A DNA stretch of 6,795 bases from Methylococcaceae bacterium (GTDB lineage Bacteria; Pseudomonadota; Gammaproteobacteria; Methylococcales; Methylomonadaceae): NCBI GenBank assembly GCA_003155565.1, contig PMDM01000376.1:953-7747 (forward strand), written 5' to 3'. Positions 1-2,301 of the stretch are shown piece after piece. Within the stretch, counting starts at the first letter, position 1. Each line of letters opens with the position of its first letter. A model generated the notes under the pieces. That model saw nothing but the letters and a program-made list of their open reading frames with translations, was not told the DNA's origin and made no database searches. Position numbers and translations under genes: made by a program.

Positions 1-35
1 CTGGCGGCATTCCCACGCCGGAGCGTAGGAACGAT
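1..35. repeat. Short hairpin-forming intergenic repeat
   Basis: TTCCCACGC (10-18) and GCGTAGGAA (23-31) form a 9-bp stem with one G-U type mismatch around a four-base CGGA loop. The style (cgttcc-acgctccggcgt-gggaatgc read on the minus strand) resembles small dispersed palindromes common between genes in gammaproteobacteria. It lies about 20 bases beyond the minus-strand stop codon of the DUF1566 tail, but no T-run follows it on either strand, so it is not an intrinsic terminator. It may continue beyond the left edge of the window. Confidence 0.55.
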
Positions 36-52
36 AAAAAATGGTTAAAGCG

Positions 53-208
53 TTAAAAAGCCCGAACAGCCCGAACATAAAGTGAGTTGAACTTACCGTA
101 GGTGAGCTGGTAGCCAACGTCGAAGCCCTGATCCCACGCAACGTTAGCAACGTCCTCCGTAGAGCTCCAGTAGTAGTCATTAGCAAAACCACCCACAACA
201 CCCGCAAC
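53..208 (-). pseudogene. Orphan C-terminal tail of a DUF1566 (C-type-lectin-like) domain
   Basis: Read on the minus strand, positions 208 down to 53 encode about 51 residues ending in a TAA stop. The tail contains the motifs GGFANDYYWSSTE, AW-Q-F--G-Q and the terminal LYVRAVRAF. These match, from memory, the end of DUF1566/Fib_succ_major-type domains, which adopt a C-type lectin fold and are usually found on exported or surface proteins. Only one sense codon (AAA) separates the start of the similarity from an in-frame TAA at 212-214. There is no start codon and no N-terminal half, so this cannot be a working gene here. The putative variable positions use almost only codons ending in C or T, as expected if AAC/AAT codons had been altered at their adenines. 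It may therefore derive from a diversity-generating retroelement target. Family recognition is fairly firm; the retroelement link is inference, and no reverse transcriptase is in the window. Confidence 0.7.
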
Positions 209-239
209 TTTTTAATTGCCACGTTTTTTATACGCTTTT

Positions 240-302
240 TCAATGGGGAGGCAATAGCCAAGGAGTTTTGTATCTCTCCTAGACTCCAGAGCGGGAACGA
301 TG
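240..302. repeat. Degenerate intergenic repeat with small inverted repeats
   Basis: AGGAG (261-265) is answered by CTCCT (276-280) around a short AT-rich loop. The element ends in ACTCCAGAGCGGGAACGATG, which resembles a worn copy of the 'gttcc-acgctccagcgt-ggaac' palindromes, related in style to positions 1-35. It is judged a repeat relic by appearance only; no second full copy is present in the window. Confidence 0.3.
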
Positions 303-341
303 AAACTAGAAAAAACAGTTGGGCATCCAAAATCCCGTTAA

Positions 342-1061: not shown

Positions 1062-1422
1062 AGAAAAAGTCGGCCTATAAGCCGGGTTCTGTCGAGAGCA
1101 GCCATTCATCTAGGCTGCAAGTCGCCTTGCAGCTCAAGCAATCTACCCAGGAACCGCGCGGACCACGCTATATTCCTCTATTTGATCTTGCTCCGGGTGG
1201 GGTTTACCGTGCCGCCCCTGTTACCAGTTGCGCGGTGCGCTCTTACCGCACCTTTTCACCCTTACCCCAGCACTTTTACAAGTGCTGGGGCGGTATATTT
1301 TCTGTGGCACTTTCCGTAGGTTCACACCTCCCAGGCGTTACCTGGCACCCTGCCCAATGGAGCCCGGACTTTCCTCCATTTTATCTCGCGATAAAACAGC
1401 GACTGCCCAGCCGACTCTTTCT
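1062..1422 (-). ncRNA. rnpB: RNase P RNA, bacterial type A (rnpB)
   Basis: This is the catalytic RNA of ribonuclease P, which removes 5' leaders from precursor tRNAs with the small protein RnpA. On the minus strand the 5' part carries the conserved GAGGAAAGTCCGGGCTCCA (1358-1376) followed by GGGCAGGGTGCCAGGTAACG and CCTGG. The 3' part carries ACAGAACCCGGCTTATAGGC (1073-1092), the universal region that pairs to close the P4 pseudoknot. AGAAAGAGTCGGC at the 5' end pairs with GCCGACTTTTTCT at the 3' end to form P1, which sets the ends to within a few bases. A perfect 11-bp stem (CCCCAGCACTT 1265-1275 with AAGTGCTGGGG 1280-1290, loop TTAC) fits the P12 arm. The length of about 361 nt is normal for type A. 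The plus-strand reading frames across it are spurious. A T-rich tract (1054-1069) follows P1 and may help termination or 3' processing. Confidence 0.97.
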
Positions 1423-1614: not shown

Positions 1615-2301
1615 ATGGACGAGATCGTCAAAGGTATATTTAGCGCACCTTTAGCTACAGTTTTTGTTGTTGCTGGAGTTGTATTTTTGTTTGTTGCTGT
1701 AGTTGGCAATATTAGTGGAAAAATCGAACCAGACATCAAGGGACGATTCATTTCCGGGATACTCGGCTTGGCATTCATAGGTATCGGCCTTGCAATACAT
1801 TTCACGCAAATGGTGACAGACACTACAACTTTAGCAACAGAAATACCAACTCAGAAGAAGATCGACAAAGCCACTGAAACGTCCCAAACGCCCACAGAAA
1901 GAGAAACAAAAGCGCCTAACAAAGCAATTGTTTCGATACCAAATACTGAAATAAAAGAATCGACCACGGCAGCAGCCACTATCGCCACAGAGGTGATCGA
2001 AGCGGGTTGCAGCTTTTTAGCCAATCAGATTGAAGGCGATCCGGGTTCAACCAACATTGTAGCCTGCCCTGCCGGATGTGACGAAGAAAGTGTTATCTAT
2101 GGCACCGATGTTTACACAGGTCACTCCTATATCTGCGTTGCTGCTATCCATGCCGGTCTGATCAATTCGCAACAAGGGGGTTCAGTAGGGGTAATCATCG
2201 AAAAAGGCCACCCCGCTTATCGCGGCTCAACACGGCACAAAGTCCATTCTTACGACTACGGAAAGTACGGCGTTTCCTTCCGGCTCACCCCGGTTAAATA
2301 A
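1615..2301 (+). CDS. Membrane-anchored protein with C-terminal LCCL domain
   Basis: The protein has 228 residues. Two hydrophobic helices occur at about 11-31 (PLATVFVVAGVVFLFVAVVG) and 45-63 (FISGILGLAFIGIGLAIHF). The basic loop between them (K36, K42, R44) is probably cytoplasmic, placing the C-terminus in the periplasm. Residues 67-125 form a Thr/Lys/Glu/Pro-rich, probably disordered linker. Residues about 130-226 match the LCCL fold (Limulus factor C, cochlin, Lgl1). They show C132, the CPAGC pair C151/C155, GTDVYTGHSYICVAAIHAG with C174, a GG-VGVIIEKG strand, AYRGS, and V-S---YG-YGVSF at the end. All four cysteines that form two disulfides in cochlin are in equivalent places, which suits an oxidising compartment. 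LCCL domains are thought to bind lipids, lipopolysaccharide or other surface molecules; the ligand here is unknown. ATG 1615 gives a complete N-terminal helix, but only a weak purine-rich stretch precedes it. The gene stands alone, divergent from rnpB and convergent with the DUF748 gene. Confidence 0.85.
   Translation: MDEIVKGIFSAPLATVFVVAGVVFLFVAVVGNISGKIEPDIKGRFISGILGLAFIGIGLAIHFTQMVTDTTTLATEIPTQKKIDKATETSQTPTERETKAPNKAIVSIPNTEIKESTTAAATIATEVIEAGCSFLANQIEGDPGSTNIVACPAGCDEESVIYGTDVYTGHSYICVAAIHAGLINSQQGGSVGVIIEKGHPAYRGSTRHKVHSYDYGKYGVSFRLTPVK

Follow-up and report, generated by a model that had tools for sequence, protein, structure and literature searches.

Diversity-generating retroelements (DGRs) are known to target DUF1566 domains (PMC4159848, PMC6642488), and DGRs inactivated through a broken reverse transcriptase (RT), with variable region (VR) and template repeat left intact, have also been described (PMC3521204). 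For BPP-1, 5' cDNA integration requires homology between the template and the VR and can use cryptic sites, and is helped by a hairpin located after the VR (PMC3240598). No paper linking DGRs with Methylococcales was found in the literature collection searched, and a term search of PMC8144416 returned nothing on DUF1566 or Methyl-. Here, 6,795 nucleotides (the window, G000:C472:953-7747) from the assembly of a Methylococcaceae bacterium (3.0 Mb, 495 contigs, 79.84% complete) were analyzed. The window carries a 147-base VR-type fragment severed from its gene, which is probably the orphaned VR of a truncated DGR target, likely written by a DGR before the rest of the gene was, again likely, removed by rearrangement (Table 1). 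Elsewhere, the window encodes a bacterial class A RNase P RNA (1062-1418, minus strand) and an LCCL-domain protein (1615-2301, plus strand; 75.9 bits), the latter with no match at E 1e-5 in seven congeners and a partial second copy on contig C189.

Table 1 Features around the orphaned variable-region block (window coordinates).
Feature	Position	Strand	Description
Dispersed palindromic repeat	1..39	-	Hairpin about 20 bases past the stop
VR-type 3' flank	28..52	-	Part of 70 bases that match the end of lectin L018 on C212
VR-type block	53..199	-	Last 48 codons and stop of a DUF1566 (Lcl_C) C-type-lectin-like tail; aligns end to end with the G001, G149 and G175 templates
Filler, 8-12 bases	200..211	-	Separates the VR block from older intergenic DNA; reads KVAG in frame up to the upstream stop
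Intergenic DNA with a counterpart upstream of DUF2909 in congener G121	208..309	.	Local alignment and BLAST

Read on the minus strand, the tail consists of a TAA stop (53-55), 52 sense codons (56-211) and an in-frame upstream TAA (212-214). A first-pass annotation made from the sequence alone had described a DUF1566-type tail of 51 codons; the tail is real, while its length required correction. Residues 6-45 of a 47-aa ORF matched Pfam Lcl_C (PF07603) with 22.3 bits (E 1.7e-4), which is below the cut-off of 34.9 bits, and the match spans profile positions 76-117 of 117 (the final third), consistent with a truncated end. Similarly, window positions 56-208 aligned to the last 47 positions of NCBIfam adhesin_Lcl (385-431 of 431; E 1.5e-5) with 23.8 bits, far under the cut-off of 500 bits. 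Homology to a lectin tail is present, below the Pfam cut-off, and the gene body that belongs to this tail is missing. The first-pass annotation had also noted that the candidate variable codons end in C or T, with the caveat that few such ends are informative, and the caveat was right: all 17 codons opposite AAC or AAT of the aligned G001 template (see below) end in C or T, but the informative ones number only six, for which a joint chance of 0.026 was computed from the codon usage of four window genes. By itself, this test is weak; comparing individual bases with real templates gave far stronger evidence. The block itself was considered as a template and rejected, in agreement with the earlier reading, as its variable codons are not A-rich and its end resembles that of a target.

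Complete arrays with related templates were identified in four genomes belonging to other genera of the same family (G001, G149, G021 and G175), in which an asparagine-rich repeat, the template, lies between an Avd-like gene and the RT, and a DUF1566 target precedes Avd (loci L049, L050, L051 and L052). A domain scan covering the L052 proteins only identified Avd by PF22296 (81 bits) and NF033474 (66 bits, under its 80-bit cut-off), and the RT by PF00078. Lcl_C scores of the array targets were 30.6 (G001), 41 (G149, scored on its last 123 residues only), 34.6 (G021) and 50 bits (G175), two over and two under the 34.9-bit cut-off. Collagen-like repeats are also present in the G001 and G175 targets, and the G021 RT is interrupted by stops. 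A DNA search with window positions 20-230 produced matches in 40 of 201 family genomes, including rows that match just the dispersed repeat, and a class-wide search matched 4 of 369 genomes, two of which are the own genome and another member of its family. The G001 template matched 45 of 237 genomes at E 1e-6 (some of these matches are templates), compared to 15 of 201 in which a DGR-like RT was detected at E 1e-40 or below. The family (Methylomonas relatives) thus appears rich in DGR lectins, and the difference between both counts suggests that many targets may outlive their retroelement, which would make DGR loss and decay measurable.

An Asn-rich block, defined as 8 or more Asn per 30 residues, was present in 18 of 19 loci of the RT search; a few of the frames look like chance. 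RTs 36-43% identical to the query adjoin Asn-rich repeats at L097-L107, L109 and L110; most of these repeats have a near-common core (NNAWN..NGN.NNNNKNN), with GGSWNN-type repeats at L106 and L107 instead. Degenerate template-like repeats that have lost their frame were observed at L126 (G159:C6) and L136 (G216:C310). Within 600 bases downstream of lectin places, an Avd-like match (E 0.05) was found at 18 of 65, of which six are near full length and 12 partial (11-41 residues); at L066, L032 and L072, where the flank is shorter than 600 bases, the match may be cut by the end of the contig or locus. Avd pieces thus often trail lectin genes without the remainder of the array (e.g., L072, L073, L043, L087 and L124).

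The mark of adenine-specific mutagenesis proposed in the first-pass annotation was recovered when the block was compared to templates of related genomes, as differences concentrate at template adenines (p 6.2e-5 to 1.2e-6). These templates are from other genera, none having been found in the own genome or genus. Window positions 53-199 differ from the G001 template at 23 of 46 adenines versus 13 of 100 other bases (p 3.4e-6), from the G149 template at 25 of 47 versus 16 of 99 (p 6.1e-6), from the shorter G021 template at 23 of 42 versus 10 of 80 (p 1.2e-6; 25 gap columns in the alignment), and from the G175 template at 27 of 48 versus 22 of 98 (p 6.2e-5). Over the first 38 codons compared to G001, 21 of 43 adenines and 4 of 71 other bases differ (p 1.1e-7), and all four non-adenine differences are C-T changes at third positions. 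Over the last 10 codons, 9 of 29 non-adenine positions differ, indicating that the G001 template is not the exact template of the block. Thus, a near-identical template with differences placed at its adenines, the hallmark of a DGR variable region, was found among other genera.

No significant bias was observed when templates were compared with each other, as G149 differs from G001 at 3 of 46 adenines versus 10 of 100 other bases, and G175 at 3 of 46 versus 19 of 100. The same was true for the intact DUF1566-like gene of the own genome (L018, contig C212; 22 of 46 versus 33 of 100, p 0.063), which does not support it as the cognate complete target that the first-pass annotation had envisaged. 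Two congener lectins are biased relative to the G001 template, namely those of G112 (15 of 46 versus 16 of 100, p 0.021) and G018 (23 of 39 versus 10 of 92, p 2.9e-8). The strongly biased G018 lectin (L088, G018:C56) resides in a genome listed as 100% complete, in which the only RT matches found are of the group II intron type.

An RT, template and complete target, which the earlier annotation thought might exist elsewhere in the genome, were not found in the 80%-complete assembly, a completeness at which absence of the element is not proven. In this assembly, an RVT_1 search gave no candidates, the G001 RT had no match, and Avd was not found, leaving the assembled 80% without either the RT or the Avd of a complete DGR. 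Among seven congeners, the G001 RT produced only two weak matches, both in G018 (26-27% identity); these were rejected as DGR RTs of the genus, being group II intron-type enzymes (427 bits, over the 300-bit cut-off, and 297.8 bits, just under it) without an Asn-rich block nearby. The template core pattern, allowing three mismatches, was absent from the own genome and matched only the G112 lectin itself. G112 was also the only congener in which a part of Avd was found, as a 16-residue start; the lectin there is followed by just the first 14-16 Avd codons, and, judging from this retained pair, the genus likely once held such a lectin-Avd-template-RT array. The only Lcl_C gene found in the assembly was L018 (36.8 bits), and no near-identical copy of the tail, for which the first-pass annotation had proposed a search, was present; the best other match was L018, with 79% identity over 70 bases of tail end and 3' flank. 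A phage home for the VR was also considered and rejected: six viral contigs carry relatives of the tail (57-61% identity), five of them with the tail motif, and neither an Asn-rich block nor a YxDD motif was found for any of the six in the stretches of DNA available. The DUF1566-like tails of viral contigs L164-L168 end in NSLYVRAVR, as does the window.

The view of the fragment as a stray copy was upheld, since only four codons precede the block and a lectin head is missing. VR similarity ends at 199, and the adjoining DNA resembles that of G121, with a local alignment from 208 scoring 118 (maximum of 45 in 300 shuffles) and a BLAST match of 80% identity starting at about 212. Immediately ahead of a shared GTTGTGG, lectin genes and templates also cease to resemble one another, which places the start of the orphan no more than about 12 bases from the template boundary. 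This is a single case, in which a few lectin codons could lie in the filler. Extension of cDNA synthesis into DNA upstream of the template was rejected as its source, as the filler is unlike that DNA by eye. Among congeners, the stretch beside the junction is common to G121 only, and C472 DNA left of the block had no match in the six congener loci tested. A similar 42-base stretch (88%), perhaps a small dispersed repeat, occurs at window 217-257 and G000:C321:8782-8823. No lectin-head remnants were seen by eye in the other open frames of the upstream region; C212 was the only hit when the genome was scanned for Lcl_C in six frames, a scan that would miss short pieces, as it also missed the window tail.

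The family loci examined contain 91 distinct repeat-like places, which leave out six repeat-only rows of the window 20-230 search; at 65 of them, the open frame of the repeat also encodes a lectin signature. The remaining 26 comprise 21 template-like places by Asn count, a contig-edge lectin (L120), a degenerate template (L126) and a short stub (L086); the final two are the window itself (L125) and a cut copy of it (L056). Among the 21, L136 is a degenerate template, and L144 has a variant motif but is in fact a full lectin ORF; outside the 26, a second stub (L084) and a further contig-edge tail (L085) were found. Both stubs (about 10 codons) are weak matches (E about 5e-4). Apart from these stubs and the contig-edge copies, the window is the only VR-type copy without a gene among the 91 places; the best two to four scored candidates were taken per genome, and copy numbers are at least those given.

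Following our preferred reading, a DGR whose template closely resembled the G001 one would have randomized the adenines of a resident lectin gene, and a deletion or insertion would then have fused the tail to DUF2909 upstream DNA; the element may since have been lost, or may lie in the missing 20% of the genome. No working protein is predicted to be made from the fragment. Although non-coding, the block looks fresh by its sequence: its four non-adenine mismatches in 71 positions are the fewest among 90 non-template places (tied with lectin L133) in an ungapped comparison that penalizes copies with indels, and such limited decay counts against an old pseudogene. Either the gene was beheaded recently or homing continued thereafter, and we favor recent beheading. 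The second option, in which the gene-less block is, or was until recently, a live homing target that still drew template cDNA after truncation and was refreshed by retrohoming instead of coding selection, appears unlikely. It would agree with the low mismatch count, with similarity ending at the template boundary, with the hairpin that follows the VR, and with BPP-1, where 5' cDNA integration is described as needing short identities only and using cryptic 5' sites (PMC3240598). However, neither an RT nor a template was found in the own genome, the hairpin has a z of only -2.1 and belongs to a repeat dispersed in the genome, and recent truncation accounts for the freshness equally well. If true, genomes could contain non-coding VR copies that DGRs maintain or have even stranded there.

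Given a fragmented metagenome assembly, a contig gap (NN) just past the window start, 52 bases from the stop, and lectin tails that form a repeat family, the junction could also be an artefact in which the tail of a complete lectin gene located elsewhere was misjoined to DUF2909 upstream DNA. We regard this as unlikely, as the assembly has no near-identical copy of the tail, and the join (199-212), by eye, lacks a long word common to lectin tails or G121. Beyond the gap, to the left of the window on C472, a PIN-domain protein and a small upstream partner gene (L090:46-701, minus strand) form a toxin-antitoxin-like pair. Finally, the block could be a common lectin pseudogene that owes its diversity to selection alone, without a DGR ever having acted on it; the DGR-free DUF1566-like gene L018 and the lack of an RT match in the own genome might speak for this. 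Such a reading is very unlikely in view of adenine-biased differences combined with near-identity to other-genus templates at non-adenine positions, and of L018 being without significant bias in the same test.

Overall, comparison with the templates of relatives makes the mark of DGR mutagenesis recognizable in a lone fragment that lacks both RT and template. An orphaned VR as such was not met in the limited collection of literature searched, and its parts are of known kinds (i.e., DUF1566 targets and decayed DGRs). Compared to the arrays of the family, the block shares the VR type, its position at the end of DUF1566 and the template type, but the window was found without gene head, Avd, template or RT. 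DUF1566 targets described from the human microbiome likewise occur together with an RT and template (PMC4159848), in contrast to the lone tail observed here. As in BPP-1 (PMC3240598), a hairpin follows the stop, although that of the window is part of a dispersed repeat. A further parallel is given by the inactivated DGRs (PMC3521204), as both would represent relics of a decaying DGR, with the RT broken in those elements and the VR cut from its gene in the window.
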